Assembly (NCBI GenBank): GCA_015178975.1
Contig: WHVD01000040.1
Coordinates: 496,001-560,000 of the forward strand
DNA length: 64,000 bases
From: Hysterangium stoloniferum
Taxonomy: Eukaryota; Basidiomycota; Agaricomycetes; Hysterangiales; Hysterangiaceae
Direction: 5' to 3'
In this document: positions 4,037-52,561 of the stretch, piece by piece
Layout of the letters: each line of letters starts with the position of its first letter
Position numbering within the stretch: position 1 is the stretch's first letter
Made by a program: the position numbers and the translations under genes
The notes under the pieces: model-generated
Told to the model about the DNA's origin: nothing
The model's input: only the letters and a program-made list of their open reading frames with translations
Database searches by the model: none

Positions 4037-4205
4037 GTGACAGCCATCACAACAGGTGACAGTTGTCACAAAGGTGCATGATGGTCACAAAAGGCGCACG
4101 ATGGTCACAAAAGGTGTGCAATGGTCACAAAGGCACGCAATGGTCACAAAGGCCTGTGACAGTCACAAAGGCGCACAACAGTCACAACATGTGACAGTCA
4201 CAAGA
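4037..4205 (+). repeat. degenerate tandem repeat with GTCACAA
   Basis: About eight to nine repeats of roughly 18-20 bp built around GGTCACAAAGG / AGTCACAA. The short frame through it is a by-product of the repeat. Confidence 0.8.
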
Positions 4206-8071: not shown

Positions 8072-8237
8072 GTACCCTCCCTTTAAGGCTGATTTACCAA
8101 AGAGGCCCTAGAGCTTGATAAGGTTTGTTAGTTATGCATATGTGTCAAGATGTGAGGTGATCTGGAGGTATTTTCCAAACATGGGGCATCTATAAAAAAA
8201 TTGAAATATTAAAATATCTCTTTCTTCCAAAACACCA

Positions 8238-8960
8238 TGGTGCCAAAACCAACACCCAAATGCTCCACACAACCCTTGCCACCTCTACCCCTGTGGGGTC
8301 TGTCATCCACTCATGGCTGCTCAAATTTTGGAGCAGCATGAAGACAAAAGGTGATGATGAGAAGAGGAAGAACAGCAAGTGAGGGGGGAGGAAGAGGAGA
8401 TGGACAGGGAGTACCAGGTGGTAGTGGCTGTGGAGAAAGAGGAGAGGGAGCAGAAGAAGTGGGAAGAGGAGGAAGCTTCCAAAGAAAGCAGCTGAAGAGA
8501 AGGCAGAGGCCACTTGAATGCAGTGGAGAAGGCCCGGATACCCAGGACTTCTGCAGGTAAGGTAAAGTGTTTTTTCTTTTCAAACAAGTCCTTTACTGAC
8601 AAAAATATTATTATAGTGCAAGGTGGTGGAGGTGGAAATGGAGTCTGAGGGAGAGCCTGGGACTCCACATCACCACAAGGTAAGGACATTTTCCCCATAG
8701 GATCCCTGGTACTAATGATTTGGACAGAAAGCTAAGAGGGTCCCAGCTCACTTGGAGTTAAAGAATGACCTGGGATGCTCTGATTGCCAAAACTGGGGTG
8801 TAGACTGTTTCTGGAAATCTGGATGGAGACTGGGATGTTACCTATGCTCCCATTTGAAGGCCAAGTGCTCCTTGGTACAAGAGACCATAGTGCCTGGAGC
8901 TCAGGAAGTTGGGGGAGCTGTGGAGTGGAGGAGACACTGGGGTGGATAGTGGCAGGCATA
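8238..8960 (+). pseudogene. antisense accessory gene of G3: coiled coil + Zn2Cys6-like cluster
   Basis: A + strand gene lying antisense inside G3, starting about 165 bp from the LTR edge. The first part (about 8300-8500) encodes a Glu/Lys/Gln-rich helix (VAVEKEEREQKKWEEEEASK), interrupted by stops. Two GTAAGG-type donor sites follow (8558 and 8680). A third segment has six cysteine codons at 8776, 8785, 8806, 8836, 8845 and 8866. Their spacing is CX2CX6CX9CX2CX6C, exactly that of the fungal Zn(II)2Cys6 binuclear cluster, with basic residues before the last Cys (HLKAKC). The gene order and upstream leader match the antisense gene at 47592. A DNA- or RNA-binding role is inference. The present copy has stops in the helix and is probably dead. 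Confidence 0.6.
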
Positions 8961-15870: not shown

Positions 15871-15953
15871 GTGACCATAGTAATTACTGGCAGTTGACAG
15901 TCAATTCAACCATTGGAACTGTTGGTCCTGTTGTAATCATTTTTCCTTTTGTA

Positions 15954-16111
15954 ACGGGTTCCTTTTGCAATGGGTTCCTTTTGCAATGGGTTCCTTTTGC
16001 AATGGGTTCCTTTTGCAATGGGTTCCTTTTGCAATGGGTTCCTTTTGCAATGGGTTCCTTTTGCAATGGGTTCCTTTTGCAATGGGTTCCTTTTGCAATG
16101 GGTTCCTTTTG
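15954..16111 (+). repeat. 16-bp perfect minisatellite
   Basis: Nine consecutive identical units of TTTTGCAATGGGTTCC starting at 15963, with partial units at both ends. Because 16 is not a multiple of 3, each frame gives a 16-residue periodic peptide; these frames are not genes. Confidence 0.97.
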
Positions 16112-37655: not shown

Positions 37656-38047
37656 TGTCACAACATTGTCTCAAAATATTCAAGGTAACATTCAACAACT
37701 ATTCGACTCATCTTTGACATCATATCTGATTTCATTCATAGATCATGATTTGATCATAGTTTAATGGAGAAAGGCATAAAAGGGCAATCAGAAGAGTGAA
37801 GGACTTCAGTCAGAAAATCTCTCTTGTATATTAGTCATCTGTATTATTAATCTACTCTCAATCTTATTATTTGTGATTGTTGATATTCTTCAACATTAAC
37901 ATCTGTGAGCTTTTGTGACTGGTATTAGCCTCTCACTTCATCGACAGGGTGAATCTATACTTCGTCAAATGAGGCTTCTGTATTTGGTTTTGTAGAATAT
38001 ATTACGATTATTATTCAACTTAATTGAAGGAAATTTGATTTGTGTCA
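37656..38047 (+). repeat. 5' LTR of G1
   Basis: 392 bp. It lacks about 100 bp present in the 3' LTR (the CATTGATTTATC...TTTCATTTTG block). TATA-like GCATAAAAGG is at about 37774, and AGTCAGAAAAT, the likely RNA start, at 37808-37818. Confidence 0.93.
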
Positions 38048-39399: not shown

Positions 39400-40811
39400 T
39401 ATGAGTGGTAACAATTTCTGATTCTTTAATTATCGAACTTACTGTAAATCGAAGAAAATTCCAAAAATAAAAGTATTAATTGATTTAGGATCTAGTCACA
39501 TTTTTATGGACAAAACATTTGCTTGACAAAACAATCTATCTTTCGATCAATTGAAATTATCATTGAAATTAATCAATGGATCAATTCCAACAACAGGACA
39601 AATTACACATACAACTATGTTACAAATTTATTTTCCATCCGGGCAAACTCAAGAATTACAATTCTACTTAACCAATCTCGACTCATCTTGTCAAGTGGTA
39701 TTAGGATTCAACTGGCTGAAGCACAATCCTGTGATTGACTGGCAATCTGGCCATATATTGTTTGAACCCACTTGACACCTTCGACAAATCTGAATCTGAT
39801 TCAATCGTTAATCAAAATATTATTGGAAGAGAAGCATGCTTCAACCTTGGTGAGTCATTCATTTACTTCTGAGAAAATTTGTGAAAAATCAAAACCTGAG
39901 ACTATTAATCCGAGTATAAACATAGTAAACCAGAAAACATTCTTACAAGCTGCAAAAGCAAAGGATTCACAAACCTTTGTGGTCTTTATTTGTGACAACT
40001 CTTTCAAGACTTGTAAAGCCTCCGGTGCAAAAACTACAACTTTGACTTCATTTGACATACCAAATGTTCTGACCGAATATTCCAACTTCTCAGATATTTT
40101 TGATAAAAAAGAAGCTGAAGCCTTACCTCAACATCAATGTTATGATCACACTATCCCATTAGAAGAAGGAACTATTCCACCTATGGGTCCAATCTATTCA
40201 TTATCTGAGACAGAACTTCAAGTATTATGAGAATATCTTCAAGAAAATCTTTCAAAACAATTTATTCAATTGTCGCAATCTCCTGTCAGTGCACCAATTT
40301 TATTTGTTAAGAAAAAATATAGAAGCCTATGACTTTGCATTGACTATTGAGGACTTAATAACAAAATAAAATTACACGAAAAAATTGATATCCACTTCCT
40401 TTAATTCCTGATCTTTTGGATCGACTTCAAAAGGCAAAATATTTTACGAAAATCGATCTTCGAAGTGCCTATAATTTAGTTAGGATCACTCCAGGTGACA
40501 AATGGAAAACAGCTTTTTGGACTCGATATGGATCTTTCAAATATTTGGTTATGTCTTCTGGACTATGCAACACTCCAGGAACCTTCCAACAATTAATGAA
40601 TGAAATATTTTCAGATTTACTTGATATTTGGGTAATTATCTATCTTGATGACATATTAATATTTTCTGACAATCTCAAAGAACATTTACGACATGTTCAA
40701 GAAGTTCTTTGATGGCTTTGACAAAATTGATTATTTGCAAAACCCAAAAAATGTGAATTTCACAAGACTAGCATTGAATTTTTAGGATATGTTATTTCTC
40801 CTCAAGGCATA
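39400..40811 (+). pseudogene. G1 protease and reverse transcriptase (5' part)
   Basis: Protease around 39470-39770: the triad reads DLG instead of DSG (LIDLGSSHIF, a C-to-T change), with VVLGFNWLKHNPVIDW at the end. The linker SDIFDKKEAEALPQH precedes RT. RT: KKYRSL-TGA-LCIDY-TGA-GLNNK is the classic LRLCxDYRGLN motif with both Arg codons changed to TGA (40330, 40348). Next come [39 protein letters not shown], and the catalytic [11 protein letters not shown] at about 40640. RT breaks at a Tc1-like insertion after GYVISPQGI. Confidence 0.88.
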
Positions 40812-41854: not shown

Positions 41855-43645
41855 TAATGAAGAAGAAATCTCAATCCTTCAAGATTGGCCTGAACCACAA
41901 AAAGTCTGTGACATTCAATCATTGTTAGGATTCATGAATTTCTATCAAAGATTTATTCCGAGTCACTCTGAAATCATTTTACAGTTGACTCATCTTACTC
42001 AAAAAAAGGTTCAATGGCATTTTGATGACAAATGTCGACAAGCCAATTATTTAAAAAATAATTTACTACAGCACCAACTCTAATTCATTGGAATCTGGAA
42101 TATAAACCTATACTCAAAACTGATGCTTCTGATCATGCTGTAGCTTCAATATTCTCTATGCAGACTCCTGATAATGCAATTCATCCCATCACTTATCATT
42201 CAAGAACTCTTTCGTCTTCTGAAGTCAATTATGATACTTACAACAAAGAATTATTAGCAATATTTGAATCTTTCAAAATTTGGTGACATTACTTTGAAGG
42301 AACAAAAAAACCAATTGAAATTTTAATGGATCACAAGAATCTCAAATATTTTGCAACCACTTGAATTCTGTCCTGACAACAAGCTTGATGGGCTGAATAT
42401 TTATCGACTTTCAATTTAATTATGATTTCGACTGGGAAAACTAAATTTAAAAACAGATATTGTTTCAAGAAGAAAGGACATTTATCCAAATTTTATTTGA
42501 TCATGTGTAACATGTACAAAATCGAACACTCTAGGACATCGACCTATTGGATTACTTAATCCACTTCCGATCCCTCTTTGACCATGGCATTCAATCTCGA
42601 TGGACTTTATCGAACAATTATTACCAACATCAAATGGTTATGACTCAATACTCATAATCATCAATTGACTATTGAAACAAGCAATATTCATTCCAACTTA
42701 TACTACAATTAACACTCCTGAACTCACTCGACTTTTCATATTACATGTCTTTTCAAAACATGGAGTCCCAAGTCATGTAACTTCCGATTGAGAATCTGAA
42801 TTTGTGTTGCATTTCTTTCAATCTCTTGGAACAGCCCTCGACATGAAATTACATTTCACTTTGGGATACCATCCTGACAAACCAAATGAGCCAATCAAAC
42901 CCTTGAACAATATTTATGAATATATTCCAATTATCAACAAGACAATTGGGCAGAATTACTTCCTCTAGCTGAATTCACTTATAATAATGCACCTTCTGAA
43001 ACAACTGGTGAAACACCATTTTTTACCAATAAAGGTTATCATCCATTGTTAGAAATTCACCCTGAAAAAGATCTAGCTTCTGCTCTCACTCATGATTATA
43101 CAACAGATTTCAAAGCTCTACATAAATATCTCAAATCAAATATCAATTATGTTATCAAAAATATGCCGACATACATCAAAAAGAAGCAATTGCTTTTCTG
43201 ATTTATTCTCAAGTTTTTGTACAATCCAACTTTATTCGAACAACTTGACCTTTGAAAAAACTATTGGAAAAATTACTAGGTCCTTTCGAAATCATCGCTC
43301 AACCCAGATCTCATTCGTATACGTTAAAACTCCCCAATCATTCTAAAGGAGTTCATCCCATATTTCACATCTCTGTTAGAACCATTTTATCCCAATACTT
43401 TCCCAAATTGAAAACAACCTCCTCCACCACTGATTTACGTTGAAGAAGAACCTGAATATGAAATTTGAGAAATTTTGGATTCAAAATTTGACAAAAGATA
43501 TAAAGACTCATTACAATATTTAGTTGGTTAGGATACGAAGGAACAGATGAAGAAACTTGTTGGTTAGGATCTCAAGATCTCGAACATGCATTCGACCTTA
43601 TTGAAGAATTTCATAAAAAATATCCAAATCTTCCATGACATTAAA
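41855..43645 (+). pseudogene. G1 RT end, RNase H, integrase, chromodomain
   Basis: RT continues with ISILQDWPEPQKVCDIQSLL and NFYQRFIPSHSE. RNase H: KTDASDHAVASIFS, then EVNYDTYNKELLAIFESFK and LMDHKNLKYF. Integrase: LGHRPIGLLNPLPIP, SISMDFIEQLLPTSNGYDSI (first Asp), HVFSKHGVPSHVTSD (second Asp), LHFTLGYHPDKPNEP. Linker: LLEKLLGPFEIIAQP and VHPIFHISV. Chromodomain around 43425-43640: PEYEI-TGA-EILDSKFDKRY, LQYLV, then in a shifted frame GYEGTDEETCWLGSQDLEHA and ELIEEFH-like end. Many TGA stops lie at expected Arg positions. Confidence 0.87.
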
Positions 43646-43739: not shown

Positions 43740-44603
43740 TTCAAACTACATATCTTCAATTCCCTCTTCCCTCAACTCTGCCATCCTTTTAAACCATTCC
43801 TCTCTGAATTCTGCACTATTAACACTTATATCAGTTCTCTCACTAAATTCACTATTTTTGACTAATTTCTTCAACAGAATGAAAAAATCATCCCTGAACA
43901 ATTTTATCTCACCAACTAAATCTTCAATCCTTTCCTCCATTTCGAGATTTCTTCACACATCAATTTCATTTCATTCTTCAAGTCATTTTCCAACCTATTT
44001 TTGACCATTCAATGAACCATTCCCGACCTTCTAGATAAAATCAACCTTCTCGAAAAAACCAACATTCTCGAATTAATGTTTCAATGAGCATTCTTCCTTG
44101 GACCAAGTTTTCAAATTTCAGGACTTCTGTTTTCAACCTCATCATCTGATTCTTTGATCACATTTCGACTTTTCTTCTGACTATGACATGGTTTTCCAAC
44201 TGGCCTATTAACAGTCCAATAATGAAGCCTATTGCATCGATCACAATTCAATGATGCATTCATTTTCTTGCACACAAAATTCATATTAAAATACATCGTG
44301 CAACTAAAAAACAAGCTTCTATTGAAGAAAATTCAATAGAACGAAAAAAAAAAACTTATAAATTTTTCAATTTAGCTTCAAACTCCCATTTCATTTCAAT
44401 ACCTTTTTGAGTTGCCTTATCGAATGGCTCGTCACAATCTGCCAGACATCTTTTGGGAATTTCTTCTAAAACTCACTAATTAATACTAATTTCAAGAAAA
44501 CCCAAAAAACAGCTCTTACCAGCACCATTAACTCCATCATTATCATTTCCAAAACCCAAAACTTAGATTCAGAACCAAATCCTTCAAATTCGATATCAGA
44601 CAT
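43740..44603 (-). pseudogene. antisense accessory gene of G1: Cys cluster + coiled coil
   Basis: Lies between the chromodomain end and the 3' LTR, on the opposite strand to pol. The N-terminus is MSDIEFEGFGSES (44603). After a GTAAGA...TTTTAG intron comes EEIPKRCLADCDEPFDKATQ and KWEFEAKLK. A further exon has NCDRCNRLHYWT and RPVGKPCHSQKKSRN followed by ESDDEVE (about 44250-44120), a degenerate CX2C...C cluster. Then comes a long charged helix (MEERIEDLVGEIKLFRDDFF and FREEWFKRMAELREEGIEDM, 43940-43746). The same ingredients occur in the antisense genes of G2 and G3, in a different order. Stops (mostly TAG/TGA) interrupt the helix. Function is unknown. Confidence 0.55.
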
Positions 44604-44682
44604 TGATTGATGAAGATCAAAATAGACAATGAAAAACTTTTCAAACTCCGACCTCGTGGGCTCAGTCACAAAGGGAGGATAC

Positions 44683-45193
44683 TGTCACAACTGTCATAGT
44701 CACAAAACTGTTACAATATTGTCACAAAATATTCAAGGTAACATTTGACAACTATTCGACTCATCTTTGACACATTGATTTATCTTTGACTACAATTCCG
44801 ACTCGACATTCTATTCAACTTCTTCAACATCATTGAATTTATTCAACTTGTTTCATTTTGACATCATATATGATTTCATTCATAGGTCATAATTTAATCA
44901 TAGTTTAATGAAGAAAGGCATAAAAGGGCAATCAGAAGAGTGAAGGACTTCAGTCAGAAAATCTCTCCATTGTATATTAGTCATCTGTATTATTAATCTA
45001 CTCTCAATCTTATTATTCGTGATCATCAATATTCTTCAACATTAACATCTGTGAGCTTTTGTGACTGGTATTAGCCTCTCACTTTATTGACAGGGTGAAT
45101 CTATACTTTGTCAAACAAGGCTTCTGTATTTGGTTTCGTAGAATATATTACAATTATTATTTGACTTAATCAAAGGAAATTCAATTCATGTCA
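44683..45193 (+). repeat. 3' LTR of G1 with polypurine tract
   Basis: 511 bp, TGTCACAACTG to TTCATGTCA. It is preceded by the polypurine tract AAAGGGAGGATAC (44670-44682). Confidence 0.93.
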
Positions 45194-45200
45194 ATGTCCC

Positions 45201-46010
45201 TGTTATGACCGGAATTCCAACTGGACTCCGGGCACTAACTTATACACACCCATGCCCTATATGCACCAATTGTCAGTTTACCGGAATTCCCACCGGACTC
45301 CATACGTCAGACTTTTCCACATTCAACTTCATTACATCATGTATCAGTCATCAGAATACCCACCAGACTCCATCCCTGTCTATGTCCGACCTCATCCCAC
45401 ACATCAGTCACTGGACCCTGCTCGGAAAACCCGTCATCCCTCTAACTGAGCCCCATTCCTATTTTAGTCAAATGACCTGTCACAATTTGGACTCTGCTCC
45501 CACTCCATTTCCCATTATGGTTTATGATTTGTCACAATTCAGACTCTGCTCCATTCTATCCTGTTCCTAACACCAAATTTGGTGTTTACTTATCCCATTT
45601 TATGTTTTGCTAGTTTCGTTTCATCATTACTGGATTTGGTATGTTATTCATTCCACAGTCTATATAGTCTGGCAGATGTTGTACATACAATCCAGTCAGA
45701 AAATCAGCTTAGATTCTCCCCAGTAATCTAGGACATTTTCTGCTCTAAACTCCTCTTTGAATTACACCACTCTCACTAGTCAGAGCTCACAGGCTCCGAT
45801 GCATCTCTCACTCAACCTCCGACTTATTTATCTCGACTCCCCGATGCCACGACGCATGATCACAACCCCTCGACCCACGAACTCTGCCCATCTGCCCATT
45901 TGAAATTGGACAACATGATCTCGCGAGGGCGCAGCCAATAAGCTGAAGCCAAGTCCTGCCAGATTTCCCACAGGTTTCTCCGGAAACCCTCCATGTATGC
46001 ACCCTTAACA
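45201..46010 (+). repeat. 5' LTR of an F2-family gypsy element
   Basis: TGTTATGACCGG to CCCTTAACA, 810 bp. TATA-like TCTATATAG is at about 45659, AGTCAGAAAAT at 45694-45704, and the core at 45938-45956. It is followed directly by a primer site and a gag frame, so it is a true 5' LTR, not a solo. Confidence 0.88.
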
Positions 46011-46012
46011 GT

Positions 46013-46023
46013 ATTTTCTGACT
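46013..46023 (+). promoter_or_regulatory. self-priming primer-binding site of the F2 element
   Basis: ATTTTCTGACT, 2 nt after the LTR end, is a perfect complement of AGTCAGAAAAT at 45694-45704 within its own LTR. It is identical to the G1 site although the LTRs are otherwise unrelated. Confidence 0.8.
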
Positions 46024-46035
46024 AAGACTCGCAGA

Positions 46036-46305
46036 TTGTTCAATATGCCACCAAGAAGAAAAGTGCATGCACAGGCATCATTACCTGGACCGTCAACTCT
46101 TCATTCCCTGTTAACTTTGTATACCAGCCAGACACTTGCGAACCAGCTGGAAGCCATGGAAGAAGCCTGTATTGAAGAAGTCCTGGAAAACCAGGACGAA
46201 TCTGAGCATGAGGACGAGTCTGTGGCCCCTGACAAGGGCAAGGGTGTCAAAAATCCCCCATCTAACGATCAACCGCCGCTTTCAGATACCGCTCTGAGTA
46301 TTTAG
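46036..46305 (+). CDS. F2 element gag, N-terminal fragment
   Basis: An 89-codon frame starting MPPRRKVHAQASLPGPST, 25 nt after the LTR and in the expected position for a gypsy gag start. It has an acidic middle (ENQDESEHEDES) and a Pro-rich end, then TAG. Chromovirus gag proteins commonly begin with a short basic stretch followed by a low-complexity acidic region. The rest of gag and pol has been lost before the G2 LTR at 46682. Whether the stop is original or a mutation is unclear. Confidence 0.5.
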   Translation: MFNMPPRRKVHAQASLPGPSTLHSLLTLYTSQTLANQLEAMEEACIEEVLENQDESEHEDESVAPDKGKGVKNPPSNDQPPLSDTALSI

Positions 46306-46681
46306 CAATCACTACCCTGAACAGTCCCCTTACAAGGCCTAAATCTTGAATAAAGAACAACTACTTTACTACTATCAACAGCACCAGCTCAGAAGCACGA
46401 TCTTCTTCATACTAAAAGACAGAATAATAGCCTTAGTGTGAAATTACTAAACTGCAAGCACCTACACTTGCAGAATCTTGAACTCTTTGTCAGCACTCTT
46501 GAACTTAGCTAATTCATCTACGTTCCCTCAGCCTCCCAGAAACCTTTAGGCTTACTAATCACAAAAGTAAATATACATAAAGTCTTATTACTGAAATCCC
46601 TGCCCATTTAGGTTATTCAAGAACCCATATTAACAGCACAGTTAATCAATATTTAAACACACACTTGGATATTTAACACTC
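46306..46681. other. remnant of F2 interior, no gene seen
   Basis: CpG-poor sequence continuing from the gag fragment with stops in all frames. It ends at the G2 LTR. Confidence 0.4.
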
Positions 46682-47419
46682 TGTTAAGAACAGAAAACTG
46701 ACTGATGTCGGAAGACTGATGGAGACTGAATGGAAGGACTTGGCTTCAGCTTATGTGCTGCACCCTTGCAAGTTACCATCAGGTGTCCTTAAATTTCAGG
46801 CAGGCAGAAAACTAAGTCCTATTGAGTAATCCTCTCAGTAAGTCACCAATTGGAAACCAAAGGATAGTTGGGGGTTGGAGGGTCAGAGAATGAGAGTGAG
46901 CAAGTGCAAGCAAAGGTGGGAGTGGGATACTTAGAGTGGGACTATGAAAGAAGTATACAAGTGTTCTGAGTTGATATTCTGATTACCTAGTAACTACATT
47001 TATAGTGGGTTTATATATGAGTTATGGCATCTAGAAACTACTAACTAAGGGAAGAGCAGAAATACTGTTGACAAATAGACTTGACTAGAAACTGGAAGGT
47101 TACGATAAGATTGGAAGCCGTGATTAACCAAGAGCAGGATTATGAGAAAAGGAAATAGTCCAAGGGTTACAAGTATATATGGCATAGGTGAAACATAGCA
47201 TGGAACGGATTATCATAAGTAAAAAGGGGACGTATCAAAGCATAACCAGATGGTATGAGTATAACTTGACAGGGCGTAAATGGGGTTTGATCGCCATGAG
47301 GGTATATGTCAGTGTCGGTTTACCAATGGTTTCCAATATGATGACTTTGGCCAGTAACTTGAAGTGCAGACAGACAATAGTATCATCGAGGACTGTTGGG
47401 TTGTGACACAGTCGTAACA
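46682..47419 (-). repeat. 3' LTR of gypsy G2 (family F1, CpG-depleted)
   Basis: On the + strand, TGTTAAGAACAG to AGTCGTAACA. It is followed by GTATCCCCCCATTT, the reverse complement of a polypurine tract, so the interior of a minus-strand element lies to the right. Compared with the CpG-rich solo copy at 13978, most CpG sites are TG or CA. The core is at 46736-46754. No matching 5' LTR was found on the right. Confidence 0.8.
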
Positions 47420-47591
47420 GTATCCCCCCATTTGGCTGAAATCCCAAGGAGGCTGGAAATCTAGATCTTGTATGTAAAATTTGTTGGGTATGGGTGGTGT
47501 GTCAAGACATCATGTGACCTGGTAAAAATTTACATATAAAAATTTGAGGGATGCTGGCACTTGAGATTTTAACTCTTTCCCTTCAACCACA

Positions 47592-48230
47592 ATGACCATG
47601 GGTTTAGGATCAAAGCCTTTCCCCTCCAGGCCAACCATCGCCCCATATTGGGTCCGAGCAGACCCTGCACAAGAGCGTTGTCAGCTTCTTGAAGAAAAGA
47701 AGAAGGTGCATGAGGAGGAGGAACATAAGGAGAAGGAGGAGCTGAAGGCGATAGAGGCAGAGGAGAAGAGGTTGGCAGAGGTGGAGGCTGCTCACAAGCA
47801 TTGGGAAGGTTGCAAAGAAGAAGCAGAGAGAGGCCGATCAGGTGCAAGAAGAGGAGGCAAAAAAGAAATGGGATGGTAAAGTAAGTTGGAGATATATATA
47901 TTTTTATTCTTGTAACCTCGCTGACATCCTTTCACAGCACAAGGTGGCAACACCATTGGATTCCGATGATGAAGAGGATGAGGAGGATGAGGAGGGAGTG
48001 CCGGGGCCTTCGAGCCCTAAGGTAAGTTCAGACTCCTATATTGTAGTTTTTATTTTTATTTTTTTGGTTATAGCAACAAAAACAGGCCCCCAAGGTGGGG
48101 CCCAAAATGGACCAATGGTGGGGGCCACACCTGTCAAGAGTGTGCCAACCAGAACCTTAGTTTCATCTTCCCAGATTCCAATGGGAACAGGCCCTATCAA
48201 GAGTGGCAGGCAGACACATTTGTATTTATA
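47592..48230 (+). pseudogene. antisense accessory gene of G2: E/K coiled coil, acidic tract, Cys cluster
   Basis: Starts MTMGLGSKPFPSRPT 173 bp from the LTR edge. It encodes a long Glu/Lys-rich helix (EEEEHKEKEELKAIEAEEKR), then shifts frame near 47810 to AKKKWDGK. A GTAAGT...CACAG intron (about 47881-47937) leads to an acidic tract DSDDEEDEEDEEG, and a second GTAAGT...TATAG intron (48022-48074) to the Cys segment. That segment keeps CQEC (48132-48143); the next four positions of a CX2CX6CX10CX2CX6C pattern are Phe (48162), Tyr (48195), Trp (48204) and Phe (48225). Each is one base from a Cys codon. The leader (TTTGTTGGGTATG, GTGTCAAGA) matches that of the antisense gene at 8238. Dead copy; function unknown. 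Confidence 0.6.
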
Positions 48231-48410: not shown

Positions 48411-49497
48411 TCTCCCTCAATATGTAGTCAAGGAGATGGGTAAATTGCATACCATAAGGGCTAGAGATATCTTATTAGTATGTAATCCATGACTCTGCTG
48501 GTTTCCATGGCAAATCTTATGTTATCAGAACAATGACATCTTAAAATCTTGAGCCAAAGTTAAAGGATCCAGTCCTCTACTATTTGACTAATGTCCCTTA
48601 AAGGTTAAACAAAAAAACAAACTGATAAAATATATGACAGGGACTGGGCTTATTTGGATATGCTTGATGAAAACTTAAGACAATTTCTGATGCATTGCCG
48701 AGCTCTGTAGCTAGGATCCATGAAGTTTCTTCATCTGTACCTTCATAGCCAGCCCATGTGACCAAATAAAGCAACTTGCATGAGCATCAGCGATTGTCGA
48801 TTTTGGAGTCTAGGATTTCCGATATCTCGAATTCAGGTTCTCTGTCAATAATCATGGGTGGTGGTGGTGGTTGTATGTGATTCAGTATATTGTTAGCAAC
48901 ATGTGGTTCTAACATAGATACATGAAATACCAGTTGCACTGCATGCATGTTGTCAGGAAGCCGAAGAGTCCACGAAAGCGTACCGGCTTGTGCTATACAT
49001 AACTTCAAAAGGACCTAAATATTTTTCAGAGAGCTTCTTGGAAGTTCTAGTGGTTCGGAAAAATTCAGCTTTAATGAATACTCGGTCTCTGATCTTAAAT
49101 TCTGGAGGCAGAAGTCGATTCTTATCCACAGACCATTGGTATTGTTCTTGGGCCATTGCAATAGTTTCCCGAAGTTCTTGATGTAGCTCATCAAGGTTTG
49201 TAATGAAGTCTTGAGCACGGATGGATGTGAGATCACGTTCCAGGTGGATTGCAATATTGGGGTTATAGCCTTTGTTTGCAAAGAAAGGTGAAATGCCAGC
49301 AGTGGCATTCAGTGTGTTGTTATATGCGAACTCAACCAGCGGTAGTAGTGACTTCCAATTATCTTGTTGATAGTTACAATAGACGTGAATGTATTGTTCC
49401 AAGGTTTGATTCATGCATTTGGTTCAGCCATCACCTTCCAGGTGATAGCCCGAAGTAAAGTGTAACTTCATGCCTAGTGGTTTTCTGAGTGACCTAA

Positions 49498-50176
49498 GGA
49501 GGGTGTTTATAATTACTATAATCTCAAATATTTACTAATAAAAGTCTTATTTTTACAAAACTCTATCTTTAAATAGTGACATCTATTCTGAAACAATTAT
49601 ATCATCAAAAAACAACCATCAGAAATAGTTCTCCATATTACATCTTATACAACCCATAATTATTTAACAAATTCCATTGTATATAATTTCCTTCCTTTTA
49701 CAGATGCCTACTAATACTTTTATTAGTACTTTGTTTTTTAAAAGTTGTAATGTAGTTATTTCCATGTAAAATATGTAAAATATTATTGGAAATTTTTCAT
49801 ACCACAGCTGTCTTTATTAAGTAAAACCCCCTATATATTCTGGGTATGTTGAATCAAATAGAAATATCTTCAGATTGACAGATCCATTCCAAAGTAATAC
49901 ATATGTATTTAGAGGTGCCAATGATATACATATGCATGGAATGGACTATCTAAAGGTATCTATTTTTTAAAAGTATTAGTTTTTCAAACTACTAATTGTT
50001 TTTATTGTCTACTCATGTCTGGAAAGATTCTTTAGTTTGTAATGTACGAGAGAGTTTAAAACTTTCAAAAAGTTTTAAAAACCAAGTTATGTTTGAGTCA
50101 CATCCCAGATGTTTAAATGACCTTTAGAGTATATTAGAATTTGGTATACTTAATAGTTTTCAGATACATATCCTCC
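49498..50176 (+). mobile_element. MITE copy M1 in G2 integrase
   Basis: 679 bp. Ends GGAGGGTGTTTATAATTAC and CCTCC, with target duplication TAA (49495-49497, 50177-50179). It is nearly identical to M3. Internal palindromes include TACATATGTA and GTTTTAAA pairs. It interrupts the integrase after SHFFRR. Non-coding. Confidence 0.93.
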
Positions 50177-52561
50177 TAAAGAAATGAGAGACAAACTCAG
50201 ATCCACGATCAGATGTGACATGCAATGGAACACTGTGCTTGGAAAATATATGGGTGATGAATAGTTCAGCTAACTGTACAGATGTTATTGTGTCATATGT
50301 TGGAATGAAAGTACTTTGCTTCGTGAGCCTATCCACAACAACTAGGATCCACAACAACTAGGATTGCTGTATGACCTTCGGATGCCAGTAGGTGCTTGAT
50401 GAAATCCATAGAAATTGAGTTCCAGGGTTTTTCCGCTATCGGGAACTGTTTGAGTAGACCATATGGTTTGTGTCGCTGTGATTTAGAGTGTAAACAAGTT
50501 GTACAGGATTTGCAATAGTGCTTAATGAAATCTTAAATTCTGGGCTATGTATATTCTCTTCTAATGAGTGCAAGAGTCTTATTGAGGCCAAAATGTCCCA
50601 AGATCGGGTGGTTGTGCTTATGTTGTAGGATTCGCAGCCGAAGGGTGTCAGAATCCAGTACATAGATGTGGTTGTCAAGTCTAATGAAACCCTGCAAGTC
50701 TAGTGACCATTAGTGTTGATTGGGATCAGATGGGTTATTGAGGTGTGCTTTGGTGACTTTGTCTAATGGAATTGCCAATAGTACAGTAGGTCTTGATGTA
50801 ACTTTTCAGTATCCATAAGGATAACACTTTGCAAGACTGGATGAATGAGGTAAGTGGCTTGGATAGACACAGACAGTTGTACAGATGAAAACATAGGCTT
50901 AAAGTTATGCAGATTAACTGTGGCATAATTGCTACTCCCCTTTTTAGGATAGATGTCCCATCATCTAGTCATAGCATCAGGTTTTCCACCAAGGTGGCCA
51001 GGACGGAAGTGGATGACCATGTTTAAGGCAGAAAGGTATTTGGACCAGTGAGCTTGTCAGCAGGTTCAAGAGTTTAGTGGTTGAAAAGTAAACCAAATTT
51101 TTGTGGTCAGTTATAACATCTATTGGAAAAGCCAATCCTTCTAGATAATGTCACCATGTCTTGAAAAAATATTGTGAGTAGTTCTTTGTTGTGAACATCA
51201 TAGTTGAGTTCAGATGCCAAAAAGGTGCAAGACAAGAAGGCTACCAGGTGGACTTCACCGTTAGTGTCCAGAATGGACAATATCACAGCAAGCATATAAT
51301 CCGAGGCGTCAGTTTCCACAATGAGTTGAACATTGGGCTTCCAGTGCAACAAAATAGGGGCAGATGTAAATGCACTTTTCAATTCTCAGAATGCCAAGTG
51401 GCATTCCTCAGAGAAATTCCATGGGGCATCTTTACAAGTAAGATGAGTAAGCAGAACAGCAATTTTTGAGTAGTTGTGAATGAAACGACGATAAAAATTG
51501 GCAAAGCCTAAAAAGGACTGGATGTCCTTAACCTTTCGGGGTTCCAGCCAATCTTGAATGACTTGAACTTTAGAGTCATCCATGTGGAGACTGTCGGGTC
51601 CCATCATGAAACCTAAATATTCAACCGTGTCGACATCAAAAGAACATTTTTTACCATTCACAAAAGACCATGTTTTCGGAATCTTCAGAGAACTTCATGG
51701 ACATGTTCATTGTGAAGTGTGGGGTCTTTGGAAAATATGAGGATGTCGTCTAAGTACACAATAACATAGATGTTGAGGAAGTCAGAAAAAACATCATTGA
51801 TAAAACATTGAAAGACCAACAGAGTGTTGGTGAGACTGAAAGGCATCACTAACCATTCGAAAGAGCCATAGCAAGTGCGAAAAGCCATTTTCCACTTGTT
51901 GCCTTTAGCGATCCAAACCAAATGATAGGCGTGTTTAAGATCTACATATCTTTGTATAGATTCAGGCCTTCCGAGGGGCATCAAGTAAATCAGAGATTAG
52001 TGGTAATGGGTACTTATCTTTCCAAGTGATCACATTGAGTCCTTGAAAGTCAACGCAAAGCCATAGGGAATCGTCCTTTTTCCAAACAAAGAGAACAGGG
52101 GCTCCATAAGGAGATTTTGAGGGTCAGATAAATCCTATAGCCAAGTGTTTGTCAAAGAAAGCTCAGATAGCCCATATTTTGGACTGCAAGAGAGGATAAA
52201 CCGGGCCTAAGGGTGGATGTGAACCTTCTTCAATATCAATTTTCAAATCGTAAGGCCTGTGAGGGGCAAGCTGATCAGCTTTTTGTTTACTGAAGAGGTC
52301 TGCAAATTCGTGGTATTTTTCTGGAACACCTTCCAAATCTGCGACAGGTTCAGCTACCAGAGTTGTGAAATGACTGGTGGCTTCATCAACTTTAAGATTG
52401 ACTGTAAATGCTTGGGAGCCTTCCAACTTGATGGTGATCATAAAAGCTGTGGCATTTATTAGAGAGATGGGAGGCAGAGAGCTTGGATTTGCCACAGGGG
52501 CTGGAGGTGCCATAGAGGCCATATTTGCCGAAACAGGCGGAGATGGACCAGTTGTATCAGG

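Follow-up and report, generated by a model that had tools for sequence, protein, structure and literature searches.

Spliced antisense genes between pol and the 3′ LTR of Ty3/gypsy retrotransposons in Hysterangium stoloniferum: a conserved reading frame and a possible regulatory role

Why would a fungal retrotransposon carry an intron-containing gene on the strand opposite its own pol? The question is raised by three loci, here called G1, G2 and G3, in a 64,000-nucleotide stretch of the genome of Hysterangium stoloniferum, a truffle-like basidiomycete of the order Hysterangiales (contig WHVD01000040.1, positions 496,001 to 560,000; G000:C335:496001-560000 in the 111 Mb searched; hereinafter the window). 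An initial annotation, made from the sequence alone, had placed at each of them an antisense gene opposite pol and next to the 3′ long terminal repeat (LTR). This observation is essentially right. In the G1 and G2 elements our analysis supports an antisense accessory gene that is conserved and belongs to them as a regular component; for G3 the opposing pol is missing in the window, where the right-hand neighbor of the gene is a copia-type gag fragment. For G1 and G2 we establish the structure, position and copy number of the gene, purifying selection on it and conservation of its cysteines. The relevant features of the window are:

43746..44603, minus strand: G1 antisense gene, broken copy (exon map from an alignment of 16 copies)
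47592..48221, plus strand: G2 antisense gene, broken and truncated copy (exons 47592-47880, 47938-48021 and 48074 to ~48221)
8237..8949, plus strand: G3 antisense gene, exon 1 broken, Cys exon open (exons 8237-8561, 8617-8679 and 8728-8949)
37656..38047, plus strand: 5′ LTR of the G1 element, the shorter of its two LTRs, main block 314/342 identical to the 3′ LTR
44683..45194, plus strand: 3′ LTR of the G1 element, directly preceded by the purine-rich tract AAAGGGAGGATAC
46680..47419, minus strand: 3′ LTR of the G2 element, a minus-strand element (left border approximate)
47531..47541, plus strand: TATA-like box TACATATAAAA of the G2 antisense gene, beginning 61 bp before the ATG
8191..8198, plus strand: TATA-like box of the G3 antisense gene, present in 6/7 G3 rows
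40365..40796, plus strand: decayed reverse transcriptase in the G1 element (PF00078, E 2.5e-28, with X in place of stops)
42104..42412, plus strand: decayed RNase H of the G1 element (PF17917, E 9.1e-25)
43213..43374, plus strand: Tf2-1-type SH3 domain near the integrase end of the G1 element (PF24626, E 2.2e-9)
48901..51945, minus strand: decayed, interrupted pol of the G2 element (reverse transcriptase, RNase H, H2C2; stops read as X)

The G1 gene lies between the end of pol and the 3′ LTR, on the strand opposite pol, with its start at 44603 (minus strand), 80 bp from the LTR edge (TGTCACAA at 44683), its stop at 43746 and its exons at 44603-44520, 44465-44360 and 44303-43746. The starts of G2 (47592, plus strand) and G3 (8237, plus strand) lie ~173 and ~166 bp from the LTR edge, in agreement with the range of 80-175 bp first given for the three. 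The Ty3/gypsy assignment comes from reverse transcriptase and RNase H domains above the Pfam cut-off in both G1 and G2, the integrase H2C2 domain in G2, and SH3_Tf2-1 in G1 and C533; in the G2 element, the matches to rve (23.4 bits against 32.6) and SH3_Tf2-1 (20.7 against 30) fall below their cut-offs. The plus-strand domains of the G1 element, whose LTRs share ~92% identity in the main block, also include a protease and, below cut-off, a gag-like DUF4939 match. A chromodomain-like stretch recognized by eye follows its SH3 domain up to ~43640 without a Pfam match; Pfam Chromo had no match at E 0.01 in the G1 or G2 pol regions, and a Pfam scan with stops read as X gave no integrase-core match for the G1 element. 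Between the two G3-type copies that were read past the gene, a pol end opposing it was found in C533 (L063; SH3_Tf2-1 1.8e-10) only.

None of the three copies in the window is intact. G1 has two in-frame stops, small deletions and a lost intron-2 donor, with one motif cysteine changed to tyrosine and another deleted. In G2, exon 1 is frameshifted, a deletion takes out the first cysteine trio, the last motif cysteine is changed and homology to the family stops near 48221. Exon 1 of G3 is interrupted by stops and frame shifts, the Cys exon being still open. DNA searches returned 374 (G2), 150 (G1) and 257 (G3) candidates, 40 of each being scored. A protein query with the G1-type exon gave 119 matches from 127 candidates, several of them having a 183-residue open frame and a match free of stops. 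The G3-type Cys exon used as a protein query gave 908 candidates; the 150 scored, all with E ≤ 3.1e-11, are known by their match and not by their retrotransposon surroundings, and 97 of them contain no stop in the match (hand count). The layout recurs: among 20 G2 loci of ten kb each, the leader is present in 20/20 and an LTR end lies beside it in 17/20 (all but L023, L029 and L032). The end of pol runs antisense to the gene in 16 of these loci, is inverted in two (L022, L024) and is absent from two (L029, L032). In the best 40 of 806 candidate G1-type loci, a set that includes the window locus and whose ranking favors complete loci, 27 span the pol end, the gene and the LTR start, 12 retain a portion of the gene and one stops short of it. 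Relatives without the gene, which the initial annotation had regarded as damaging to its claim, are thus rare in this set, 39/40 keeping part or all of it.

In the aligned G1 copies the gene has exons of 85, 106 and ~538 bases, encoding ~242 residues, with fixed intron places; at intron 1, the GT donor is absent from one and the AG acceptor from three of the 16 rows. The G2 gene has a Glu/Lys-rich exon 1 of ~100 codons, an acidic exon 2 of 28 codons and an exon 3 of ~170 codons, separated by two phase 0 introns with GT and AG both in 21/21 rows at intron 1 and both in 20/21 at intron 2. Database gene models share both junctions (P0002, P0004) or that of exons 2-3 only (P0001). In a further model, P0003, G2-type exons are combined with a DUF6533 (PF20151) protein, which reflects either a model error or a real fusion. 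G3 is laid out in three exons like G2.

The frame of these genes is maintained. We computed the ratio of nonsynonymous to synonymous substitution (dN/dS) by the Nei-Gojobori method in all six frames for 16 G1 copies and 15 of 21 G2 rows (omitting WIN, L029, L030, L032, L034 and L040). The gene frame had the lowest value in five of five comparisons: 0.183 for exon 3 and 0.214 for exons 1+2 of G1, and 0.237, 0.240 and 0.238 for exons 1, 2 and 3 of G2 (0.245, 0.267 and 0.333 with all 21 rows). The values thus span 0.18-0.24, rather than lying near 1, as the initial annotation had supposed they might if the gene were spurious. The second lowest was always the reverse shadow frame, which shares third positions with the gene (0.30-0.36), and the other frames ranged over 0.51-1.79. 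Simulated neutral decay with CpG and transition bias ranged over 0.38-0.82 in G1 and went no lower than 0.388 in G2 exon 1; mutational bias alone therefore lowers neutral dN/dS and the proper null is not 1, yet the observed values are still below the simulated ones. As a rough yardstick, pooled pol, with its broken frames, gave 0.39. Transversions, which are not caused by CpG decay, are ~2.5 times commoner at third codon positions in G1 (0.039/0.038/0.099 by position), and their excess there is clear in G2 exon 2 (0.005/0.005/0.062) and exon 3 (0.036/0.030/0.057). Together, these results support the G1 and G2 antisense genes being coding and under purifying selection.

Two other sources of the signal were rejected. 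A sense-strand gene would not place the shadow frame above the gene frame, as it is in 5/5 comparisons; stops, too, are more frequent in the shadow frame in 4/5, G2 exon 2 being a tie at zero. A chance open frame or the decay of a compositionally skewed stretch was rejected on the basis of the six-frame dN/dS, splice-site and cysteine tests and the neutral simulations. C-to-T differences among G1 and G2 copies occur at 0.32-0.38 for CpG and 0.10-0.21 for other C, the CpG rate being 1.8-1.9 times that of CpA (0.17-0.21); this pattern is more in keeping with methylation decay than with repeat-induced point mutation of the CpA type.

What the frame encodes is most distinctive in its cysteines. 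The initial annotation had noted a cysteine cluster, which is indeed present but was underspecified: in all three families it has six cysteines in the Zn2Cys6 pattern, C-x2-C-x6-C-x8-C-x2-C-x6-C in G1, with a central linker of x10 in G2 and x9 in G3. C-x2-C-x6-C-x(8-10)-C-x2-C-x6-C is the spacing of the fungal Zn2Cys6 clusters, whose general pattern is C-x2-C-x6-C-x(5-12)-C-x2-C-x(6-8)-C. Motif cysteines are kept in 92/95 cells of the 16 G1 copies and in 91/94 cells of 16 of the 21 G2 rows, that is, ~97% among untruncated copies; the five G2 rows omitted here (WIN, L029, L030, L032, L034), because they are truncated or losing homology, have lost more motif cysteines than the others. The one intact G3-type exon that was read (L064, C268) has an undamaged motif. 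When L064 is compared with the Pfam Zn_clus profile (PF00172), the second half of its cluster aligns to the profile start, so the halves look swapped; G2 and G3 have an invariant lysine in the second half, and the first-half basic residues of Zn2Cys6 clusters were not found. Behind the cluster of G2 a long helix is predicted (residues 59-84 of 88); that of G1 and L064 was read from the sequence by eye. Pfam scans of the family sequences found no TRP28 (PF04195), other plant aORF domain or bZIP. A PDB sequence search had no match for G2 or L064 and four weak ones for G1: two run through a brief ACYW-like motif of a designed protein, and bromodomain-containing protein 1 accounts for the other two.

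G2 and G3 are homologous and share a leader, as first reported. The cysteine regions of G1 and G2 have no relation detectable by hhalign (probability 0.3%), and the option of a single family was discarded on this ground. Protein searches with single G2 and aligned G1 queries retrieved only H. stoloniferum proteins or nothing, and one with the G2+G3 alignment found no relative outside this species among 8000 candidates scored, a weak negative; relatives were sought with G2, G2+G3 and G1 queries, and not with a clean G3-type query. Within one set of seven G2 copies (loci L021-L040), divergence per site is 0.104 for pol, 0.126 for the leader and 0.167-0.203 for the antisense exons, which hints at a gene evolving faster than pol or at module exchange between elements; as the pol frames are broken, this comparison is a lead only.

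How would such genes be expressed? A TATA-like box starts at -57 to -61, between the LTR edge and the ATG, in 17/21 G2 rows. Being inside the LTR edge, it suggests a dedicated promoter for the G2/G3 genes, against the bidirectional LTR originally proposed for them; for G1, an LTR-borne promoter is possible. The heptamer TTGTGAC/GTCACAA occurs 2-4 times per 110 bp before the G1 start codon in 16/16 copies (window 44570-44720 and L041-L055), against 0.015 in shuffles of one copy. The copies share ancestry, and the 16 hence count as one observation; the heptamer may be an operator or merely LTR-end sequence. It also forms part of the unit of a 19-bp tandem array of GTCACAAAGGCGCACAATG at window 4065-4203.

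With these elements in hand, we propose that several high-copy Ty3/gypsy families of this fungus encode, in an intron-containing gene opposite pol and between pol and the 3′ LTR, a nuclear DNA-binding regulator that would tune the transcription of its own family, a reading to which we give about even chances. Transcription of the G2/G3 gene would probably start at a promoter lying just inside the 3′ LTR. The protein would unite acidic segments, the six-cysteine, Zn2Cys6-spaced cluster and a long helix that probably dimerizes; most likely it would enter the nucleus, bind DNA close to the LTR edge of its family and tune element transcription by repression or activation. It is the conjunction of a spliced antisense gene, acidic segments, cluster and helix that leads to this proposal, in which transcription, zinc binding, DNA binding and the direction of the effect are inferred. 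The regulator suggested by the initial annotation is a plausible idea, to which the Zn2Cys6-like spacing lends weight.

Several observations weigh against this reading or the selection result beneath it. No tested sequence reaches the 21-bit cut-off of Zn_clus: the window G3 exon comes closest at 17.0 bits, L064 scores 13 bits, G2 members match in 3/6 cases with a best E of 0.97, and none of seven G1 members matches. G1 instead weakly matches PHD_2 (PF13831; 2/7 members, best 7.8e-4); the last Cys pair of the C4HC3 PHD finger is not visible by eye. We therefore limit the claim to a protein that works like a zinc-cluster factor, without assigning it to the family. The AlphaFold2 model of G2 (helix-strand-helix-strand-long helix) is of low confidence (pLDDT 50.5). 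As for selection, the tests pool old, decayed copies and cover G1 and G2, not G3; the simulations, which cover G1 and G2 exon 1 only, are less diverged (proportion of synonymous differences, pS, ~0.27 for G1 and ~0.2 for G2 exon 1) than the observed copies (0.48 and 0.35); the third-position transversion excess is weak in G2 exon 1 (0.019/0.021/0.027); and the intron-2 donor of G1 is changed from GT to AT in seven of 16 rows and missing in one.

Among other explanations, the best survivor is that the protein shields the element from host silencing, by cytosine methylation or RNA interference, instead of setting transcription directly. An acidic helical protein could block the silencing machinery, and C-to-T change fastest at CpG fits methylated, silenced elements; but the Pfam scans matched no known protein family and the Zn2Cys6-like spacing indicates DNA binding first, so that we regard this as unlikely. 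Somewhat less probable still is an accessory particle protein with a structural or nucleic-acid-chaperone role, encoded on the antisense strand: nucleocapsids also have cysteine clusters with basic residues and the predicted long helix could drive assembly, yet the cluster spacing is not CCHC, a nuclear intron-containing antisense transcript would be an odd source, and the pol domains, along with the sub-cut-off DUF4939 of G1, sit on the sense strand. An improbable third option is that the transcript acts as RNA, forming a duplex with the pol 3′ end that feeds silencing, its frame being incidental. The tail-to-tail arrangement of gene and pol would permit this, and antisense RNA has been proposed to regulate plant elements (PMC7264820); as a sole function it is disfavored by one-frame purifying selection, in-phase introns and cysteine retention, which indicate that the protein matters, though RNA and protein effects could coexist. 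Finally, a functionless captured host gene fragment or a chance open frame, to which the P0003 fusion (host-gene exchange may happen) and the 150 G3-type exons known without their setting lend something, is very improbable overall and strongly disfavored for G1 and G2 by dN/dS under the neutral simulations, by the gene persisting at least in part in 39/40 of the best G1-type loci and by two families without detectable relation having the same cysteine spacing.

Two side observations may be added. A tannase/feruloyl esterase-like gene (PF07519, minus strand) adjoins a G3-type copy at L062 (C517:210151-211650), and a nearly perfect 16-bp tandem array of TTCCTTTTGCAATGGG (10.6 copies, 98% matches) occupies window 15943-16111.

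We consider tentatively, and with somewhat less than even confidence, a broader proposition, namely that spliced antisense genes for Zn2Cys6-like DNA-binding regulators are present in gypsy elements of fungi, whether of independent origin or through deep descent, with the cluster halves swapped in G2/G3. If it is true, the at least 150 diverged G3-type exons, mostly open across the cluster, would be a hidden reservoir of zinc-cluster regulators, and the genes a fungal counterpart of the retroviral HBZ. Many "hypothetical proteins" and possible zinc-cluster genes of such genomes may be part of retrotransposons, and element self-regulation becomes testable in a fungus. Antisense accessory genes are already known from plant elements, there without established function, and from some retroviruses; that a spliced, selected gene with a DNA-binding-like cluster occupies this position in unrelated fungal elements suggests that antisense regulators near the 3′ LTR arose repeatedly. 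In line with the initial annotation, which knew of no such architecture in fungi, we found no fungal precedent outside H. stoloniferum in the protein searches or in the available portions of the open-licence PMC literature.

The closest known systems resemble these genes in position and layout alone, as no sequence relation to HBZ or the plant aORFs was detected. The plant aORF-3R genes (gene23 of Grande, RIRE2, TRP28 of Retand) likewise lie antisense in the interval from pol to the 3′ LTR and persist in many or most copies, some of their products are nuclear or predicted to bind DNA, and the Grande gene has its own promoter upstream (PMC7264820, PMC11963269). The likeness thus lies in position, copy retention and a suspected nuclear DNA-binding regulator; in contrast, the fungal elements have a pol end with Tf2-1-type SH3 and chromodomain-like regions, and their genes have three exons and a Zn2Cys6-spaced cluster without plant aORF domains such as TRP28 (PF04195). 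Among retroviruses, HBZ of HTLV-1 and APH-2 of HTLV-2 come from spliced antisense transcripts that begin in the 3′ LTR, and both inhibit Tax-dependent viral transcription, HBZ having an activation domain, basic domains and a dimerizing zipper (PMC3736048). The fungal genes share with them a spliced antisense gene near the 3′ LTR, but have a cysteine cluster instead of a bZIP match, and their coding region is divided among three exons within the element. From Gal4-type Zn2Cys6 factors (PF00172) they differ in their sub-cut-off score, their antisense origin in a retrotransposon and the placement of the lysine-bearing half second in G2/G3, and they resemble them in cysteine spacing, in acidic segments and in a long helix behind the cluster, predicted at low confidence in G2.

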